Of a stretch of DNA of 45,501 nt, positions 31,289 through 38,764 are shown piece by piece. Under the pieces are notes generated by a model. The model did no database searches. It worked only from the letters and a program-made list of their open reading frames with translations, and was not told the DNA's origin. This DNA is from Streptomyces sp. SID3343 (GTDB lineage: Bacteria; Actinomycetota; Actinomycetes; Streptomycetales; Streptomycetaceae), in assembly GCF_009865215.1 (NCBI RefSeq), contig NZ_WWJX01001423.1, forward strand, positions 1 through 45,501, given 5' to 3'. A program made the position numbers and the translations under genes. How positions within the stretch are numbered: position 1 is the first letter of the stretch; each line of letters starts with the position of its first letter.

Positions 31289-32809
31289 ATGGCGCGCTCG
31301 ACGCCGCACCCGTTGCGGGGCTCCCCTTATCGGCCCGTGCTCGCGCACCCGGTGCTGCGTCGGCTGCTGCCGGGCTACGCGATCTCGTCGATCGGCGACG
31401 GCATGGCGGTGGTCGCGGTCGGGTGGCTGGCGGTGGAGTTGGCGCCGGCCGACGCGCGGGGCGTGTGGGTGGCACTCGCGGCGGCGGCGTACACCCTGCC
31501 GGGCGCGCTGGGCGCGGTCGTCCTCAACCGCCTCCTCCGCGGCCGCAACCCGGCGCGGCTCGCGACGTGGGACGCACTGCTGCGGGCGACCGCGCTCGGC
31601 GCGATACCGGTGGCGCACGTCGCGGGGGCGCTGTCGATCGGCCTGTGCGTCGCGCTGCTCGCGATGTCGTCGGTGCTCCACTCGTGGGGTCAGGCAGGTA
31701 CGTACACGCTGCTCGCGCGGCAACTGCGCGAGCGCGACCATCTCGCGGGCAACGCACTGTTCTCCACGATCGGCTCGGTATCGAGCGTCGCCGGGCCGCT
31801 GCTGTCCGCCGCCATGGTGGTGTGGACCGGCGCGATCGGCGTGATCGCCGTCGACGCGGCCTCGTTCGCGATCCTGGCGGGCACCCTGCTGGTGGCGGCG
31901 CCCGGTGCGGACAGCGGCGTGGGGGCCGCCGAGGCCACCGGGACGGACGGGGCCGGGGCTGCCGAGACGGCTGGGACGGGCGGCGCCGGGGTTGCCGAGA
32001 CGGCTGGGACGGGCGAGGCCGGGCCTGCCGAGACGGCTGGGACAGCCGGGGCCGGGGTTGCCGAGACGGCCGGGACAGCCGGCGCCGGGCCTGCCGAGAC
32101 GGCCGGGACAGCCGGCGCCGGGCCTGCCGAGACGGCCGGGACAGCCGGGGCGGCCGACGCCGAGGACCCGGAGCGGATGCCCGTCGAGGGCGCCTCTCGG
32201 GCCGGCGGCGTGGCAGTGATCCGCGCCGACCCCACGATGCGCAACCTGGTGCTGCTCACCATCGGGTTCTTCTTCCTCTTCGGCCCCGTCTACGTGGCCC
32301 TGCCCCTGCACGTCACCCAGGACCTGCACGCGTCGGCCGGCACCCTCGCCGGCTTCTACAGCCTCTTCGGCGCCGGCGCCGTACTCGGCTCCCTGCTCGC
32401 CGGCTACCTCCGCCGCCTCCCCTTGGCCCGAGCCGCCGCCGGCATCGTCACGCTCTCCGGCCTGACCCTGCTCCCGGTTGGCCTGGGCGCCCCGACCTGG
32501 GCGGCGATGGCAGGCTTCGCCCTCCTGGGCTTCCTGTGGCCACCCTTCTCCACGATGTCCACCACCCTCTTCCAACACTCGTCCACCCCGGCCCAACTCC
32601 CCCAAGTCCTGGCCGTCGTCTCCGCGATCCGCATCCTCGCCGTCCCCCTGGGCACCGCCCTGGGCGGCCCATCGGTAGCCACCCTCGGCCCCGAACCCAC
32701 CCTCCTGATCAGCGCCTCGGGCATCCTCACCCTGGGCCTGATCACCGTGACCGCCCTCCCCCGACACCTGAACAACCACCCAAGCCAACCCGGCCCGTCC
32801 GGCGCCTGA
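31289..32809 (+). CDS. MFS transporter with repetitive central loop
   Basis: A 506-residue membrane protein with two six-helix halves: the first from LLPGYAISSIGDGMAVVAVGWLAVEL, the second from LVLLTIGFFFLFGPVYVALPLHV. The type resembles enterobactin-exporter-like or macrolide efflux proteins. Between the halves (about 211-290) are seven 11-residue repeats based on AETAGTAGAG plus one residue. The ATG at 31289 has GGAG upstream and is favoured over an earlier in-frame ATG. The protein's last residues PSGA and stop codon lie inside the first copy of repeat array B. Substrate unknown. Confidence 0.87.
   Translation: MARSTPHPLRGSPYRPVLAHPVLRRLLPGYAISSIGDGMAVVAVGWLAVELAPADARGVWVALAAAAYTLPGALGAVVLNRLLRGRNPARLATWDALLRATALGAIPVAHVAGALSIGLCVALLAMSSVLHSWGQAGTYTLLARQLRERDHLAGNALFSTIGSVSSVAGPLLSAAMVVWTGAIGVIAVDAASFAILAGTLLVAAPGADSGVGAAEATGTDGAGAAETAGTGGAGVAETAGTGEAGPAETAGTAGAGVAETAGTAGAGPAETAGTAGAGPAETAGTAGAADAEDPERMPVEGASRAGGVAVIRADPTMRNLVLLTIGFFFLFGPVYVALPLHVTQDLHASAGTLAGFYSLFGAGAVLGSLLAGYLRRLPLARAAAGIVTLSGLTLLPVGLGAPTWAAMAGFALLGFLWPPFSTMSTTLFQHSSTPAQLPQVLAVVSAIRILAVPLGTALGGPSVATLGPEPTLLISASGILTLGLITVTALPRHLNNHPSQPGPSGA
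31921..32155 (+). repeat. 33-base coding minisatellite within the MFS gene
   Basis: Seven units of 33 bases encode AE(A/T)(T/A)GT-x-(G/E)AG-x. The last four units are almost the same, so recent expansion is likely. The segment lies in the predicted cytoplasmic loop linking the two halves of the transporter, where length changes are tolerated. Confidence 0.85.
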
Positions 32810-33111
32810 GGACACCCGACAAGCCCGGACCAACCAATCCAGCCCGTCCGGCCCATGAGGACAACCCCAAGAACCCAGAGCAGCCAGATCAGCCCGTCCG
32901 GCGCTTGAGGACACCCGACAAGCCCGGACCAACCAAAATCAGCCCGTCCGGCGCCTGAGGACAACCCCAAGAACCCAGGACAGCCAAAACAGCCCGTCCG
33001 GCGCCTGAGGACACCGACAAACCCGGACCAACCAAAATCAGCCCGTCCGGCGCCTGAGGACAACCCCAAGAACCCAAGGCAGCCAAGACAGCCCGTCCGG
33101 CGCCTGAGGAC
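32793..33111. repeat. Array B: seven copies of the same core motif at 50-base spacing
   Basis: Core GTCCGGCGCCTGAGGAC (preceded by GCCC) begins at 32793, 32842, 32892, 32942, 32992, 33041 and 33091. Spacers alternate between a CCCGACAAGCCCGGACCAAC type and a CCCCAAGAACCCAG type, giving a 100-base dimer. The core is the one seen in array A, six kilobases away, with different spacers. The array fills the gap between the convergent MFS and ThiL-like genes; the first copy contains the MFS stop codon. No gene is present from 32810 to 33150. Confidence 0.88.
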
Positions 33112-33150
33112 GCCCGACAAACCCGGACCAACCCTCAGCACCGAACCCAC

Positions 33151-34254
33151 CTACCCCGCTTCCGATCCCGTCGCGAGCAAACTGATGTCACTCGTCTGAT
33201 GCCGCCAAGCCACCCCCGGCAAGGCCCGAGTGACCCCAACCGCGTTCACCGATTCCACCCGGCACTCCTCGATCGCCTCGCCGATCACGTGGAAATCGAG
33301 GCCCGCCGAAGCGAACTCGGCCCGGCAGGCGTCGAGATGCTCCGGCGGTAGCGTGAAGGCCAGCTGGAAGTCGGAGGACGCGCTCATCGACAGGGCCAAC
33401 GGCTCGACGCCCATCAGTTCGGCCACCGCCCGCACCGCCGGGTCGATGGGTACGTTCTGCTCGACCACCCGGAATCCGACGGAGGCCGCGGCCATGATCT
33501 GGTCGATGGTCGCCTTCAGACCGTCCGAGGTGTCCTGGCAAGCGGTGGCGTAGGGTTCGCGCGCCAGGATGCGCCCCTCGGCCACCCGGGCCCGAGGCGA
33601 TTTCCAGGCGTTCAACAGTCGCTCTTCCGTGGCGGCGGGCAAGGTCCAGCCCTCGGCCTCTTGCCGGGGGAAGTACGCGACGGCCGCACCGAGGACGCCG
33701 CACACGCCGGTGACACACAGCAGGTCCCCCGGCCGCGCCCCCTTGCGCATCAGGGCCTTGCCGGGACGGCAGATCCCCAGCGCGGTGGCGGACAGCACCA
33801 CCCGCTCGGCGTTGCCGATGTCGCCGCCGACGTTGAGCACCCCGAAGTCCGTGCAGGCCTGGTGGATGCCCGCGATCACCTGCCGAAAGCCGGCGTCGTC
33901 CAACTCGCTCGGATACCGCACCACCGTGAGCACGCCGATCGGTGTCGCGCCCATCGCGGCCACATCGCTGACGTTCGCGGCCACGACGTAGTACCCGATG
34001 TCGAAACCCGTCAGGAGCCCCATCTCGTACAGCACGAATTTCGGACCGCGGACGTAGTCCGATCCCACGACGAGCGAAACCGGTTCCTTGATGTCGTAGA
34101 CGGCGCAATCGTCCTTGGCGTCGGCCCCCGCCACCAGGTCGACGGCCAGCCCGTCCGCCCCGACGTCGGCTCCCGATTGGCCGCTGAAGAACTCGGCGAC
34201 GAGCCGCCGCACCCGGGTGGGCTCGTCCGAGTAGGTAGGTTCGATGTCACTCAC
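33151..34254 (-). CDS. PurM/ThiL-like ATP-binding kinase
   Basis: A 367-residue protein of the AIR synthase / thiamine-phosphate kinase / SelD superfamily. DAKDDCAVYDI supplies the Mg-ATP acidic pair, VVAANVSDVAAMGATPIGVLTVV is the family core, LNVGGDIGNAERVVLSATALG and CQDTSDGLKATIDQIM resemble ThiL. The N-terminal 20 residues and low overall similarity to the housekeeping ThiL by eye argue for a specialised role. Its ATG overlaps the CMP-kinase-like stop by four bases (ATGA), so the pair is co-translated. Substrate unknown; a phosphorylated small molecule is likely from the family. Confidence 0.8.
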   Translation of the reverse strand: MSDIEPTYSDEPTRVRRLVAEFFSGQSGADVGADGLAVDLVAGADAKDDCAVYDIKEPVSLVVGSDYVRGPKFVLYEMGLLTGFDIGYYVVAANVSDVAAMGATPIGVLTVVRYPSELDDAGFRQVIAGIHQACTDFGVLNVGGDIGNAERVVLSATALGICRPGKALMRKGARPGDLLCVTGVCGVLGAAVAYFPRQEAEGWTLPAATEERLLNAWKSPRARVAEGRILAREPYATACQDTSDGLKATIDQIMAAASVGFRVVEQNVPIDPAVRAVAELMGVEPLALSMSASSDFQLAFTLPPEHLDACRAEFASAGLDFHVIGEAIEECRVESVNAVGVTRALPGVAWRHQTSDISLLATGSEAG

Positions 34255-34910
34255 GAGGCCACCACCCGCAACTCGCGTACGACGCTGTTGAGGACGGCAT
34301 CGGCCGGCAGGTACGTCGACTCGATCTCGACCGAGCCCGCAAGCGCGCGAATCGCGTCACGATTCTCGATGTCGCGGCTCGTGGCCGGTCCCACGGCGGC
34401 GGAACGATGCCTTATGTCCCGGTACTGAGCACGTCGGCGTTCTCGCCGCACCGTCAGGCTCGCCGTCAGGTAGATGTTCAACGTGGCCTGCGGCAGCAAG
34501 GTGACCGCGACGTCCCGACCGACGACCACGATGTTTCGGTGCCGATCGACGATCTCGCGATGCATGTGCAGGATCTCGGAACGCCAGGACTGATCCGAGG
34601 CCACCTGTTTGAGTCGGTCGTCCTGCTCGGGCCCCCAGATCCGGTCGGAAACGTCCTTTCCGCGGTAGAGAATTCTGCCCTCGCCGTCGTGATCCGATTT
34701 TCCCGCGTCGGGCCCGATGCCGGGCCGGTGCTCGATGACGGACCACAGGTCCGCCCTCTTCGGCGAGACGGATTCCCGGCCCAGTGCGTAGGCAACGGCC
34801 CGATAGGTCAATCCACTGTCGAGAAAGACCAATCCGAATCTACGCGCCAGGCCCGTCGCAAGTGTCGTCTTGCCACTCGCGGTCGGACCGTCGATCGAAA
34901 TTGAGAGCAC
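34251..34910 (-). CDS. CMP kinase homologue (accessory copy)
   Basis: A 219-residue kinase. The N-terminus LSISIDGPTASGKTTLATGLA holds the P-loop (8-16); FLDSGLTYRAVAYAL, ILYRGKDVSDRIWGPEQDD and VVVGRDVAVTLLPQATLNIYLTASLTVRRERRRAQ match cytidylate kinase in order. The usual GRD(I/M)GT is GRDVAV, so the nucleotide pocket may differ. Streptomycetes normally keep their housekeeping cmk next to der, which is not seen here, so this is probably a second, dedicated copy. GTG at 34910 chosen by the family start. It lies between HIT and ThiL-like genes in one operon. Confidence 0.82.
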   Translation of the reverse strand: MLSISIDGPTASGKTTLATGLARRFGLVFLDSGLTYRAVAYALGRESVSPKRADLWSVIEHRPGIGPDAGKSDHDGEGRILYRGKDVSDRIWGPEQDDRLKQVASDQSWRSEILHMHREIVDRHRNIVVVGRDVAVTLLPQATLNIYLTASLTVRRERRRAQYRDIRHRSAAVGPATSRDIENRDAIRALAGSVEIESTYLPADAVLNSVVRELRVVAS

Positions 34911-34956
34911 GGATACCTGTTTCCCCTCGAACCGATTTCGTCTGCCGGTGGTGCGG

Positions 34957-35688
34957 TCATGTCCGCCGAAAAGTGGCGGGTGTACTCCTACCGACTCTCG
35001 CAACGTGCGACGTGGCATTGCCTGCGACGTCGGAACTCCATCGACTCGTCCGCACCATCGTTTCGCGCAACAGTTCCGGGCGGATCGAGACCGAATAATC
35101 CCAGAGCGGGTCGGGTATGCCGAGGATCCGCCCGACTATCGAGCGCAGGTATTGACCGCGCACGTGGGATTCCGCGCGATAGAGGCGCATTCCCGTGTCG
35201 TCGAGGCAGAAGAAATAGGAGCCTTGACCGCCGACCGAGGGCAGGTCGTCCAGACTCGGGACCTCTACGGGGGTCAATCCGTCGGCCAGAATCAGCCTGT
35301 TCACGGCTCCACCGGCGATCGGCAGCAGGTGCCAGTGGGCGTGGGAGATGCAGGCCGTCGATGTCATGTCGAGCGACGAGCCGTGCTCCACGATGGTCAG
35401 GGCGCCGAAGGTGTCCAGATAGCGCGGCACGATCTCGGCGAGGAGATCGGCCAGCTCCGCGCTGCCGTCGGAGATCAGTCGAGCGAAGCTCGGATAGTGC
35501 TCGATCGGCAACAACAGCAGGTGTCCGACGCATAACGGAGAAAGGTCCGCGAGGACGCGAAGATGCGCCGTGGCGCAAATGGTTCGACTCTCCGGATCGC
35601 CCTGGTAGACCAGCGAAAAAGCCGTTGCCGAAGAGCCGCGCAGTTCCTCGCACAGATCCGAACCATCACACTGGAATCGGGCGCGCAT
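34957..35688 (-). CDS. HIT-superfamily nucleotide hydrolase/transferase
   Basis: A 243-residue protein. The histidine triad is SHAHWHLLPI (H116, H118, H120). Before it, LADLSPLCVGHLLLLPIEHYPSF is the usual strand-loop; after it, a region ending GQYLRSIVGRILGIPDPLWDYS is like the tail of larger HIT proteins that act on nucleotide-linked phosphates. The N-terminus has Cys at 7 and 13. The ATG at 35688 has GGGGGA upstream. A well-formed promoter lies 65-93 bases before it. First gene of the HIT - CMP kinase - ThiL-like operon; 46 bases separate it from the next. Confidence 0.82.
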   Translation of the reverse strand: MRARFQCDGSDLCEELRGSSATAFSLVYQGDPESRTICATAHLRVLADLSPLCVGHLLLLPIEHYPSFARLISDGSAELADLLAEIVPRYLDTFGALTIVEHGSSLDMTSTACISHAHWHLLPIAGGAVNRLILADGLTPVEVPSLDDLPSVGGQGSYFFCLDDTGMRLYRAESHVRGQYLRSIVGRILGIPDPLWDYSVSIRPELLRETMVRTSRWSSDVAGNATSHVARVGRSTPATFRRT

Positions 35689-35752
35689 ATCTGATCCCCC
35701 ATCCGACGGAGCAGCACGTGAAAAACGTTGCGAAGTCGGCCTCAGGATTGAT

Positions 35753-35781
35753 AACCTACCGTGATCACTTGCCAACTGCAA
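35753..35781 (-). promoter_or_regulatory. Promoter for the HIT - CMP kinase - ThiL-like operon
   Basis: On the minus strand TTGCAG (35781-35776) and TAGGTT (35758-35753) are separated by exactly 17 bases, close to the housekeeping sigma consensus. A transcript would begin near 35746, giving a leader of about 58 bases before the ATG at 35688. Confidence 0.6.
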
Positions 35782-35832
35782 GGATCTTTGACGGAGCGTC
35801 AGATTCCGCTCGGGTCCCAGGTCGGCTTTCTT

Positions 35833-35862
35833 CATGATCCATGGCCGCATGATCCATGGCCG
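35833..35862. repeat. Exact 15-base tandem pair in the divergent gap
   Basis: CATGATCCATGGCCG occurs twice in succession (35833-35847, 35848-35862). The remainder of the 35,689-36,011 gap shows no gene. Given the position between divergent genes, the pair may be a regulator site or a replication slip. Confidence 0.6.
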
Positions 35863-36011
35863 CTCGATCCCCGACCGCACGATGCGTTGCCGTGAATACG
35901 CCGGCCCAGGCATCGGACGAAGATCCGCGATACGGGCGCCGGCACCTGCGCACGCCGAATGCGACCGGGAAGACCATCGATTATCAAATCCGAGGTCCCT
36001 AAACTGCCCGG

Positions 36012-36779
36012 ATGAGACCTTCGACGGCAAAGCTCCTGGACCGCCTGATCCTGCTCGCCGCGACGATCCTCATGGCGGCTCGCCAGTACCACGTGCCGAG
36101 CAAGGATTTCTGGGAGCGGTCTGCCGACGACACGGACTACCTGCCCTTGGTGCTGATCTGCACGATCGGGGTCTTCGGCGCGCTCACTCCCTGCCAGGCG
36201 CTGGTGAAGCGCAGCCTGACCGCAGCGAGGACGGCGACAAGAAACGAGATACTCACGCACCTCGGCGGGGTTCTCAAGATTGCGACCAAGGGATCTTCGC
36301 CGATCGACATCGGCGACGTCGCGCTCTACATCTGGCGGGTCCGGCGCTCGGTCCGACACCCGTGGCACGGTCGCCTCGAACGGGTCGCCGCCTACCGCCT
36401 CGGCAATGTCCAGCCGACGAGATCCTTCGCGCCACCCAAGGGTGTCGGTGTGGTCGGGCTCTGCTGGAAAGAGAACGCCGAGCAGAAAAAGAACGTCGAG
36501 CGACTGGCCGTACGATTGGCGACTGCGGGTGACTTCGAAAGCCATCGCAACGCGCACGGCGAGGACGCGGTGATGGGGCTTTCCTGGCTCGACTTCACGC
36601 GCGTACGTCATCGGGGCGCAGTATTCGCGACGCCGATCAGGAATCGAGCCGGCAATTTCGTCGGGTGCATCAGCGTCGATGCGCGCACGGGCTACGACGT
36701 GCTGGCCGTCCCCGAATTCTGGCAGGAAATCAATTCCCTGAGCCAGACTCTCGGAAAGCGAAGCCTGCAGAACCTCTGA
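36012..36779 (+). CDS. Two-TM membrane protein with GAF-like domain
   Basis: A 255-residue protein. Two hydrophobic segments lie near the N-terminus (LLDRLILLAATILMAA at about 8-23 and YLPLVLICTIGVFGAL at about 43-58). The cytoplasmic remainder resembles a GAF sensor: KGVGVVGLCWKENAEQKKNV, then RGAVFATPIRNRAGNFVGCISVDA. There is no kinase, nuclease or DNA-binding part. It is divergent from the HIT operon and convergent with a second HIT gene 29 bases beyond. Membrane anchoring with a small-molecule sensor suggests signalling or an effector, but this is inference. No strong ribosome site precedes the ATG. Confidence 0.7.
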   Translation: MRPSTAKLLDRLILLAATILMAARQYHVPSKDFWERSADDTDYLPLVLICTIGVFGALTPCQALVKRSLTAARTATRNEILTHLGGVLKIATKGSSPIDIGDVALYIWRVRRSVRHPWHGRLERVAAYRLGNVQPTRSFAPPKGVGVVGLCWKENAEQKKNVERLAVRLATAGDFESHRNAHGEDAVMGLSWLDFTRVRHRGAVFATPIRNRAGNFVGCISVDARTGYDVLAVPEFWQEINSLSQTLGKRSLQNL

Positions 36780-36808
36780 CCGACTCGACGACACCGGCCG
36801 GTCGTTCT

Positions 36809-37468
36809 TTATCGCTTGACGTCGGCACATTCCGATCCGCGTTCCGCAGAATCGCCGGCCGGCTCGGGCTCGGGTGCGAGTGCGGGCTCGGGTGCGACCT
36901 CGGGCGCGGATCCGGCCGCCGGTGTCGCGGCGGGAGCCCACGTCTCGGGATGGCAGTTGGGTACCACCTGCCTGATCCCGCCCCGGGGGTCCTCGACGTC
37001 ACCGAAGGTGCGTGGGATCAGATGGATGTGCAAGTGATCGATGGTGCGACCGGCCGCCCGGCCCTCGTTGACGCCGACGGTCCAGCCGTCCGGCCGGTGG
37101 TCGGCGGAGAGCTTGCGCTGTACGGCCACCATCAGGGCGTACGCGTCGTGCACCTCTGCGGGCGTGAGCTCGAACAAAGACTCGACATGCCGCTTCGGAA
37201 CGATCTCGACATGCCCTTCGGCTGCCGGGAAGTTGTCGTACCTGGCATAGAAAGTGCCGTTTTGCTGGAGGATATTATTCAAGTCCGGACGATTCAGCTT
37301 GCAAAATAAACAGTCCGGCGCCCCCGATGCCTCGGCGGGAGCCGAATCCCGGTCGTGAGCTGCAATTTCCCGGTTTGCCCGCACACCGAACATCCGGGAC
37401 AACTTTCCGATCACTCCGTTTCGTGACCCGATACCCCGATCACCGTGATTTGGCACATGTGTACTCAC
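36809..37468 (-). CDS. HIT-family protein (HINT/Ap4A hydrolase type) with acidic Pro/Ala tail
   Basis: A 219-residue protein. The core starts at DCLFCKLNRPDLNNILQQNGTFYARYDNFPAAEGHVEIVPKRH and contains the full triad DHLHIHLIPR (H145, H147, H149). C53 and C56 are the two Cys of a possible zinc site. Residues 1-50 are a charged extension, and about 175-219 is an Ala/Pro/Glu-rich tail not normal for HINT proteins. The GTG at 37468 has AGGAGG nine bases upstream. Likely activity is hydrolysis of a nucleoside phosphoramidate or dinucleotide. Lies in the same unusual cluster as the first HIT gene. Confidence 0.85.
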   Translation of the reverse strand: MSTHVPNHGDRGIGSRNGVIGKLSRMFGVRANREIAAHDRDSAPAEASGAPDCLFCKLNRPDLNNILQQNGTFYARYDNFPAAEGHVEIVPKRHVESLFELTPAEVHDAYALMVAVQRKLSADHRPDGWTVGVNEGRAAGRTIDHLHIHLIPRTFGDVEDPRGGIRQVVPNCHPETWAPAATPAAGSAPEVAPEPALAPEPEPAGDSAERGSECADVKR

Positions 37469-37540
37469 CGTGAGACGCCTCCTGTTGCGGATTCGTGCGC
37501 GACCCCGTGACTGTACCGGCACGCAACTGCGCGCGATCCG

Positions 37541-37562
37541 GCAATACCGATGCAATACCGAT
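37541..37562 (-). promoter_or_regulatory. Two exact 11-base direct repeats upstream of the second HIT gene
   Basis: GCAATACCGAT occurs at 37541-37551 and 37552-37562, 73-94 bases before the GTG at 37468. The adjacent one-turn spacing suits cooperative binding by a regulator. Confidence 0.45.
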
Positions 37563-37678
37563 CCGACTGCCGTCGCGAGGCAAGCGAACAGATGGGTATC
37601 GGTGATTCTCCGAAGACCGTGATCTTTATCGGAGTCGAATGAGCCTGACGTTGCCGCAGCGAAACACTCGACGGCATG

Positions 37679-37848
37679 CTAGTCGACCAATCCGGCCGGC
37701 CCGACCGCAAAATAACCCCGCTCGGACGGGATGCCCAGGTCCTCGGCACGTCGGCGCAGCACTGTTCCAGCAGGTCGCGGGGCATTTCGTCGGCCGCCCA
37801 TTCGATTCCGAAGCGGGCTGCGGCGTCGGGTGCAGTCGACCCGGACAA
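37679..37848 (-). pseudogene. Fragment of an unidentified gene, frameshifted
   Basis: One minus-strand frame reads DAAARFGIEWAADEMPRDLLEQ and then runs into nonsense; a second frame picks up at LRRRAEDLGIPSERGYFAVG and ends PAGLVD with a TAG at 37679. Joining them needs a single-base shift near 37770. Together they look like the C-terminal half of a soluble protein, but I cannot name it. It may be a relic or an error in the sequence. Confidence 0.4.
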
Positions 37849-37889
37849 AGAATGCGTTCGGGTGAATCCGCGTGATCATCGGATCGTCG

Positions 37890-38531
37890 TCACGACGCGG
37901 CCCTGCCGTCCTCCAGCACCACCATGGTCCAGCGCACTCCGGACCGCGCGTGCAGATCGGTGCGCGCGCCCACGTACAACGGCCGGAACCCGAAACGGTC
38001 GGCCAACTCGACGGTCTCCGGCGCGGAGACGTCCCACATTCGTCGGCCCTCGGGGACCGGGCCGTGTCGGAGAGTCATCACCACCCGGGCACCCGGGGCC
38101 GACAGGGTGAGGATCCGTCGCATGCCGGCAAGACGCTCGGCTTCGTCCAGATGCATCCACACGGCGGTGAGCAACACGACGTCGAACGGGCCCTGCACAC
38201 CGGCCAGTTCCGGCAGCGAGTCGTCCACCCACTCGACGCCCGCCCCCGCGTGGATCCGCTCCCCGAGCCGCCGCAGCTCGTCGGTCGGCTCCACCGCGAC
38301 GACCCGGTGACCGAGCGCGGCCAGCGCGGCGGCGTCTCGTCCGCTGCCCGCTCCGAGGTCGACGACCCGGCTCGGGGCGTCCGGGAACAGGTGCAGCACG
38401 TCGCGGTGCACGTCGGCGAAGGTCACCCCCTCGTACTGCTCCGCCAACGCCTCGGCCGCCTCGCCGTACCCGGCCGTCCCACGCGGCCGTGCCGCGCCAC
38501 CAGGCCCTCGCGCTCCCGCCGCAGTACCCAT
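37890..38531 (-). CDS. Class I SAM-dependent methyltransferase
   Basis: A 213-residue protein. SAM motif I is VVDLGAGSGRDAAALAALGHRVVAVEP (about 56-82); FDVVLLTAVWMHLDEAERLAGMRRIL is motif IV with the following helix; ARVVMTLRHGPVPEGRRMWDVS is the last strand pair. Substrate unknown; the compact Rossmann fold without an added domain fits small-molecule methylation. The ATG at 38531 has no strong site, so the real start may be a little downstream. Minus strand, beyond the DUF397 genes. Confidence 0.88.
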   Translation of the reverse strand: MGTAAGARGPGGAARPRGTAGYGEAAEALAEQYEGVTFADVHRDVLHLFPDAPSRVVDLGAGSGRDAAALAALGHRVVAVEPTDELRRLGERIHAGAGVEWVDDSLPELAGVQGPFDVVLLTAVWMHLDEAERLAGMRRILTLSAPGARVVMTLRHGPVPEGRRMWDVSAPETVELADRFGFRPLYVGARTDLHARSGVRWTMVVLEDGRAAS

Positions 38532-38578
38532 GCGAGCACGCTACGCCACGCCGTCGGCCACCACGCGACAGCCGACCC

Positions 38579-38764
38579 TCAAACCCGGCGGACTCCGTCC
38601 AACAACGCGACCCAGGCCGCTTCCGAGACCGCGATCGGACCACGCTCACGCGCTTTGCCGTCCCGCACCGCAGCCGCAGCGGGAAGCGATGCGACTTCCA
38701 CGCAGTCTTCACTGGTTTGCGTCGAGTAGGACGACTTACGCCATGCCAGTGCGGGAGTGGTCAC
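38579..38764 (-). CDS. DUF397 protein, copy 1
   Basis: A 61-residue protein. WRKSSYSTQTSEDCVEVASLPAAAAVRDGKARERGPIAVSEAAW is the complete DUF397 domain. These small proteins are encoded beside XRE-DUF5753 regulators in streptomycetes and act with them in development or antibiotic control; here the regulator is at 39181. The GTG at 38764 lies 4 bases past the stop of the broken copy 2. Confidence 0.9.
   Translation of the reverse strand: MTTPALAWRKSSYSTQTSEDCVEVASLPAAAAVRDGKARERGPIAVSEAAWVALLDGVRRV

Follow-up and report, generated by a model that had tools for sequence, protein, structure and literature searches.

Membrane effectors of CBASS-, Pycsar- and Thoeris-like systems act on binding a nucleotide messenger. 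We describe a compact group of five genes that resembles these systems in joining nucleotide enzymes to a membrane protein with a small ligand-type domain, and in that one of its enzymes, HIT1, has kin fused to a CAP12-type TIR domain. Unlike them, it has no cyclase, TIR or SAVED part. The group lies in a 45,501-nucleotide stretch of Streptomyces sp. SID3343 (NZ_WWJX01001423.1; hereafter the window, meaning the whole stretch analysed), which forms contig 636 in an actinomycete genome of 11.06 Mb (1645 contigs; completeness 99.67). It encodes two HIT proteins (HIT1 and HIT2), a homologue of CMP kinase (CMK-like), a ThiL/PurM-superfamily kinase-like protein (ThiL-like) and a membrane protein with a GAF-like soluble domain. 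With a probability of roughly 0.4, we read it as a self-contained mobile cassette of five core genes and an optional methyltransferase gene that would handle one non-canonical phosphorylated nucleotide-type metabolite, with membrane sensing.

Other described relatives concern single members of the group. Bacterial CMP kinase (Cmk, TIGR00017; E. coli 1CKE) and the thiamine-monophosphate kinase ThiL (TIGR01379; PDB 5DD7, 5CC8, 3C9R) are the counterparts of the two kinases, and CwfJ/CWF19-type spliceosomal HIT proteins those of HIT1. HIT hydrolases give resistance to microcin C-like peptide-nucleotides, according to an excerpt of PMC7157772. The MccH/HinT phosphoramidases treated there share HIT chemistry with the cassette, and HIT2 matches Hint-type NCBIfam models below their cut-offs; however, no mcc-type gene occurs among the cassette proteins, and HIT1 belongs to another HIT branch.

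All five proteins were searched against Pfam, NCBIfam and PADLOC at E ≤ 0.01. An earlier note on this DNA, made from the sequence alone, had named two HIT proteins, a CMP-kinase homologue and a ThiL/PurM-like kinase. These identities are borne out by Pfam for HIT2 (HIT), the CMK-like protein (Cytidylate_kin) and the ThiL-like protein (AIRS/AIRS_C), and by motif, Protein Data Bank (PDB) profiles and a structure model for HIT1. HIT1 and the membrane protein had no match in any of the three libraries at that threshold. PADLOC returned only a HIT match (ThsC, 36.9 bits) and a 15.6-bit Walker-A match, and no CD-NTase, TIR or cyclase signal-synthase domain occurs in the five cassette proteins or the methyltransferase. 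The earlier note knew of no named system with this set; we likewise found none with Pfam, NCBIfam, PADLOC or PHROGs models, nor in literature searches of open-licence PMC papers. The gene families are known, and their combination is unrecorded in the libraries and literature searched.

A conserved and patchily distributed cassette

We identified the cassette by two routes. A HIT1 scan of a genome contig collection, its sensitivity limited by an exact-peptide pre-filter, picked up a relative at three loci (S. lydicus L033, S. zingiberis L034 and S. melanogenes L035), and all five genes are present at each. A profile of the GAF-like protein matched 5 of 392 Streptomyces genomes, again with all five genes at each. 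One of these five is the L033 genome and one has the same matches as L034, leaving seven distinct loci: the window and six Streptomyces loci (L033, L044, L034, L035, L046 and L047). The co-occurrence check proposed in the earlier note thus has a clear outcome, with all five genes together at each of the seven distinct loci that have a close HIT1 or GAF homologue. HIT2, for example, is present at 7/7. Five of five genes at seven of seven loci rules out chance neighbours.

Gene order is HIT1>CMK>ThiL>2TM-GAF> <HIT2 in 6/7 cassettes. The window differs by an inversion of the HIT1-CMK-ThiL block, so the divergent arrangement seen there is the exception. By eye, the flanks of the seven cassettes make up about five genomic sites, as flanks are shared within the L033/L044 pair and within the L046/L047 pair. 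The five genes have correlated pairwise identities (0.84-0.96), a range partly driven by the very close L033/L044 pair; identities were taken over aligned positions only, with the window CMK-like open reading frame read from a longer start (35003). All five genes are under purifying selection, with dN/dS of 0.08-0.25 in two close pairs, and none is therefore decaying.

Cassette G+C content lies below that of the flanks at 7/7 loci (0.59-0.67 versus 0.70-0.72). For the window the values are 0.649 and 0.70, in line with the lower GC that the earlier note had remarked on. There is no tRNA gene in the window, and in six loci the nearest lies more than 4 kb from a cassette, which gives no sign of tRNA-linked insertion. 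When relatives of S. lydicus were searched for gltD, the matches besides the S. lydicus gene itself were 65-72% identical. From patchiness, site changes and GC, we infer that the cassette is horizontally mobile among actinomycete genomes.

Wider searches returned few close relatives. HIT1 was found in one of four genomes of the source genus. In a family sample of 394 genomes, 371 have some HIT1 match at E ≤ 0.01, and only the source genome and one other exceed 51 bits. Across 396 genomes of the phylum, the HIT1 profile at 1e-7 recovered the source copy and nine others at 31.6-35.1 bits. The ThiL-like profile at E ≤ 1e-50 matched only the source genome among 374 genomes of the class, and the GAF profile matched the source genome among 394, with 10 weaker matches (best 53.4 bits). 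Plasmid records yielded one distant HIT1 match, and no match to the GAF protein among 72,556 records at E ≤ 0.01.

Two kinases diverged from housekeeping enzymes

The ThiL-like gene (33151-34254, minus strand) encodes a 367-residue protein from a GTG start, which overlaps the CMK-like stop codon as GTGA and not, as first reported, as ATGA. The protein is 70-73% identical to its six cassette orthologues and passes the TIGR01379 model (206.2 bits; cut-off 184.15). A second thiL lies elsewhere in the source genome. A housekeeping-type thiL of 259-280 bits is present in 9/9 genomes searched. In the six cassette carriers searched, the second thiL over the cut-off is the cassette copy (201-208 bits), and a higher-scoring thiL lies elsewhere in 6/6.

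We compared the seven cassette proteins with 10 housekeeping ThiLs (E. coli and nine Streptomycetaceae), a set whose kinship accounts for some of the invariance. Of 90 columns invariant in the housekeeping proteins, 46 are kept in all seven cassette proteins and 44 are altered in at least one. Kept residues include D48, D49, D66, D97, D145, D241 and D244. Changed in 7/7 are H72>K, GGE>ASS (292-294), D351>K/R and F353>Q. Going by ThiL structures, the kept aspartate columns presumably lie at ATP and metal, and the changed columns on the substrate side. The N-terminal Asp-containing loop of ThiL is placed at ATP and metals in an excerpt of PMC6416309, as a loop and not residue by residue. The cassette protein thus resembles ThiL in its PurM-superfamily sequence, catalytic acidic residues and score over the family cut-off, but differs from it in these and other substitutions shared by all seven (GGED>ASSD among them) and in being a second copy beside a higher-scoring thiL.

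The CMK-like gene (34251-34910, minus strand) has a GTG start at 34910, picked by comparing relatives. Its product matches Cytidylate_kin (E 1.1e-31) and falls below the TIGR00017 cut-off (108.6 bits; cut-off 135.55). Another cmk in the source genome is 32% identical to it. Relative to E. coli Cmk, the equivalents of Walker-A K18, R41, R110, R131, D132 and R181 are kept in 7/7 cassettes; the S36 equivalent is S or T, and S101 is K in 7/7. D185 and R188 fall in an alignment gap in 7/7 (the local alignment is uncertain), because the CMK-like LID stretch is shorter and different.

In a homology model of the Yersinia enzyme, described in an excerpt of PMC3603445, Cmk contacts the base through R110, D132 and S36 and the phosphates through R41 and R131, with D185 and R188 also at the nucleotide. 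The Yersinia mutants R110A, R131A and R188A had no activity (PMC3603445, same excerpt). In T. thermophilus, the equivalents of D185 and R188 sit at the ribose and base, according to an excerpt of PMC7259600. The cassette protein therefore resembles Cmk in its Walker A and most CMP-contact residues, but lies under the equivalog cut-off, has no recognisable D185/R188 LID motif and groups with plasmid-borne Embleya proteins. The simplest reading is that its predicted substrate is a pyrimidine-type nucleotide other than CMP.

In a tree of 12 sequences, cassette and Embleya-plasmid CMK-like proteins stand apart from three housekeeping Cmks (support 100/99), with the inner order unsure. The cassette proteins do not form a clean clade, since a long-branched plasmid protein is placed within their set. 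On one Embleya plasmid (L099:10993-16023), a formyltransferase-CMK fusion of 543 residues adjoins a lantibiotic dehydratase gene. On another (L100:11959-15017), radical SAM/SPASM and PCMT-type methyltransferase genes come after a CMK-like gene.

From their sequences, the two cassette kinases are divergent paralogues of housekeeping enzymes with catalytic residues in place. The earlier note had named the finding of housekeeping copies as an outcome that would count against a special gene group; with another thiL and another cmk elsewhere in the source genome, neither kinase is such a copy.

HIT1 belongs to a CwfJ-like branch of HIT proteins

HIT1 (34957-35688, minus strand) carries the triad HAHWH (HAHLH in L046 and L047) and a C-terminal extension. 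Its PDB profile matches are mostly HIT proteins (best E 1.4e-6), and it has weak PHROGs matches to function-unassigned families (best E 2.2e-5). An AlphaFold model reached a mean pLDDT of 67.1 (moderate confidence). The six best structural matches of this model are spliceosomal entries (E 4.1e-7 to 3.3e-5; TMq 0.56-0.64) that cover most of its length, the first with a root-mean-square deviation of 15.7; Fhit, Ap4A phosphorylase and GalT follow behind them. We take most of the matched chains to be CWF19-like, and one protein so named is among the PDB profile matches. On this model, HIT1 is a CwfJ-like HIT protein. It shares its top structural matches with the CwfJ/CWF19-type proteins but differs in being bacterial and only 12-15% identical to them, in a model of moderate confidence.

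Four distant relatives of HIT1 (L036, L037, L038 and L049; 22-28% identical) have none of the other cassette genes as neighbours; at L049, a stretch of 24% ThiL-like similarity overlaps other genes. These four proteins share with HIT1 an EHG motif and the C-terminal extension, both absent in four HIT2 proteins and four generic HIT proteins. In a tree of 18 rows, the HIT1s and the four distant proteins (ten in all) form one side of a branch with 100/99 support, although the program warns of long branches.

The contexts of these relatives are varied. Downstream of an ARPP-2 gene, L036:8133-9998 encodes a single protein whose N-terminal domain is a CAP12-type TIR and whose C-terminal domain is a CwfJ-like HIT; it also has an orotate-PRTase-like stretch (under model cut-offs). 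Our literature search found no paper on a TIR and HIT domain combination in anti-phage work. For ARPP, which is tied to the ARPP-2 gene here by name only, an excerpt of PMC9503650 proposes an action in conflict systems on ribose derived from ADP-ribose. L037:7110-10302 and L038:3884-7195 share an operon of genes for a DCD-like protein, a CwfJ-like HIT protein, a protein of 313-314 residues of no assigned family and a cysteine desulfurase (DndA/SspA-like in L037, recognised by eye in L038). The L038 operon has an E1-E2/JAB gene further on and a patatin-like gene near it. L049:627-11350, on a Rhizobium leguminosarum plasmid, is an operon of dTMP-kinase-like, PRPP-synthetase-like, PfkB-like (by eye), cysteine-desulfurase-like (by eye), HIT1-like, TrpD-like and methyltransferase genes, which looks like a nucleoside-type pathway. 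The common thread, as predicted from these neighbours, is nucleotide chemistry in accessory operons.

HIT2 (36809-37468, minus strand; HIT E 2.5e-19) is a Hint-type HIT protein with the triad HLHIH, encoded convergently to the GAF gene.

A membrane protein with a GAF-like soluble domain

The GAF gene (36012-36779, plus strand) encodes a protein that the earlier note described as having two transmembrane segments and a GAF-like domain. The two most hydrophobic 19-residue stretches in six cassette proteins start at residues 4-5 (mean hydropathy 1.07-1.74) and 43-47 (1.93-2.44). The second is a clear transmembrane helix, but the first is weaker, lying below a Kyte-Doolittle mean of 1.6 in 5/6 proteins. 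The GAF assignment is likewise plausible but thinly matched. GAF_2 appears at E 0.003 in only one of nine family members, the window protein not among them; this is a stand-alone homologue with GAF_2 at E 0.003-0.006, under the Pfam cut-off. The best PDB profile match of the membrane protein is a transcriptional regulator fragment (E 0.46). Conserved positions in the soluble part are common to stand-alone homologues in two other actinomycete families (L093:10090-10833 and L094:9634-10392), which have no kinase or HIT1 match beside them. At L095:8625-10257, a further GAF-like homologue is truncated where the contig stops, and a gene recognised by eye as that of a patatin-like phospholipase lies near it.

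A TAnnnT box, read by eye, stands 6 nt before the ATG of the GAF gene in 7/7 cassettes, and an automatic promoter scan found nothing. This box suggests that the GAF gene may have a leaderless transcript of its own. In the divergent intergenic region of the window (35689-36011), 15-bp repeats occupy 35833-35883 and there is no strict sigma-70 match. The promoter that the earlier note had assigned to the HIT-CMK-ThiL operon was not recovered, as an automatic sigma-70-type scan found 0 with 0.5 expected by chance. Rfam gave no riboswitch or structured RNA match at E ≤ 1 across 32500-38600.

An optional sixth gene and the genomic surroundings

The five genes of the earlier note are all present where it placed them, but as a description of the cassette the set is one gene short in 4/7 cases, the window included. 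There, a class I S-adenosylmethionine (SAM)-dependent methyltransferase gene (37890-38531, minus strand; Methyltransf_25) adjoins the cassette. Homologues 55-58% identical adjoin it at L034, L046 and L047, where they are divergent to HIT1, and no homologue was found at 1e-3 in the 20-kb loci L033, L035 and L044. A whole-genome search of 20 genomes at 1e-10 (the source, two cassette carriers without a methyltransferase nearby and 17 without a cassette marker in earlier searches; S. melanogenes left out) recovered only the source copy, with 0/19 others matching.

We scanned 43 proteins picked from the vicinity of six loci: 40 from the flanks, plus three cassette methyltransferases out of the four. 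All PADLOC matches at E ≤ 1e-10 were to single components, namely mad2 in three proteins, mad3 in one and three PbeA models in one each. The mad2 matches may be the methyltransferases. Among the Pfam families listed (25 of 42), the set is a mix of transport, central metabolism and regulators, with one CDPS, and no defence island or biosynthetic cluster common to the cassettes was seen. Because no such shared surroundings were seen, the cassette seems self-contained.

Two repeat arrays lie on the ThiL side of the window cassette. A tandem array with units of about 50/99 bp (GCCCGTCCGGCGCCTGAGGAC...; 92% matches at period 99) occupies 32793-33133, directly after the ThiL-like gene. At 31922-32151, a 33-bp tandem repeat within an MFS-type transporter gene encodes a Gly/Ala/Thr-rich repeat.

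A proposed pathway and its alternatives

We propose that the cassette may work as follows. The CMK-like kinase would phosphorylate a pyrimidine-type (cytosine-like) monophosphate that differs from CMP, and the ThiL-like kinase a second acceptor, a phosphate or phosphate-like compound other than thiamine phosphate; both would be ATP-dependent and activate an unusual nucleotide-like phosphate. HIT1 would then transfer or hydrolyse the resulting nucleotidyl group, as GalT or Ap4A phosphorylase do, and HIT2 could recycle or detoxify nucleotidyl adducts. Where present, the methyltransferase would decorate the product, and the membrane GAF-like protein might sense that product or its absence. The earlier note had guessed at making and responding to, or detoxifying, a nucleotide-type signal or antibiotic. 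That guess is compatible with our results and somewhat strengthened by the company of distant HIT1 relatives, but they do not choose among its options.

Several observations weigh against a dedicated nucleotide cassette. The ThiL-like protein is still above the TIGR01379 thiL cut-off, the alignment around the CMK LID is uncertain, and CMK-like relatives on Embleya plasmids stand beside LanB or radical-SAM genes with no HIT genes. The informative HIT1 relatives are at most 28% identical (22% at the low end), are not accompanied by the other cassette genes and have long branches in the tree. The GAF fold is uncertain, with an AlphaFold pLDDT of 42.7 alongside the E 0.46 profile match. The methyltransferase is missing from 3/7 cassettes. 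Mobility is read from patchiness, site changes and GC, and the source assembly, in 1645 contigs, has a contamination of 6.69%. The enzyme classes come from sequence; the order of action, the substrate and the sensing are predictions.

A doubtful alternative is a nucleotide-signal immune or stress system, in which the kinases act with HIT1 and the methyltransferase to make or edit a nucleotide-derived messenger and the GAF-like membrane effector, on binding it, opens the membrane or arrests the cell. The membrane segments with a ligand-type domain and the patchy, low-GC cassette would fit such a system, as would the kin of HIT1 in a CAP12-type TIR/PRTase-like/HIT protein after ARPP-2 and beside DCD-like and DndA-like genes, with E1-E2/JAB further on in L038. 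However, the cassette contains no cyclase, TIR or other recognised signal synthase, PADLOC gave just the ThsC HIT and 15.6-bit Walker-A matches in the five proteins and single-component matches in the 43 scanned proteins, and stand-alone homologues of the GAF protein occur in other actinomycetes without the cassette. A specific form of this idea is likewise unlikely: a new signalling or immune module in which the kinases and the CwfJ-like HIT transferase (with the methyltransferase) build a modified pyrimidine-type nucleotide, the membrane GAF-like protein provides the readout and HIT2 is the off-switch.

We consider self-protection or detoxification quite unlikely. Here HIT1 and HIT2 would cleave a nucleotide-type antibiotic (peptide-nucleotide or phosphoramidate), the kinases and methyltransferase would inactivate the fragments, and the GAF protein would sense the antibiotic. 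The actinomycete host, the microcin C precedent for HIT hydrolases, and a CDPS gene near one cassette (at L035, by eye), accompanied by a P450-like gene, point this way, but no biosynthetic cluster common to the cassettes was seen, flanks differ between sites, and two kinases with intact catalytic residues make an unusual detoxification set.

Improbable, too, is that the genes form a short route for the biosynthesis of a nucleotide-like natural product destined for secretion. The surroundings of the Embleya-plasmid CMK-like relatives, which resemble those of ribosomally synthesised and post-translationally modified peptides (LanB; radical SAM/SPASM with PCMT-type methyltransferase), are consistent with it, as is the HIT1-like gene in the Rhizobium operon with PRPP-synthetase-like, TrpD-like and methyltransferase genes. 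The five core genes, however, include no scaffold-making enzyme or exporter. That the genes are spare housekeeping copies for thiamine and CMP metabolism lying together by chance, as the passed thiL cut-off might suggest, is very improbable given the housekeeping-type copies elsewhere, conserved residues diverged in all seven and tight five-gene linkage, and for the two kinases it is ruled out by the other thiL and cmk copies and the residue changes.

Our preferred reading, a self-contained cassette for a non-canonical nucleotide-type metabolite, amounts to a small transferable unit of five or six genes, with members of two housekeeping kinase families apparently re-tooled alongside two HIT enzymes. 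Should the unit make a new nucleotide, that compound would be a novel second messenger or natural product. The small size of the unit would allow its transfer into a laboratory Streptomyces. It also draws attention to a bacterial CwfJ-like HIT branch with kin in TIR/ARPP-2, DCD-like and nucleoside-like operons.

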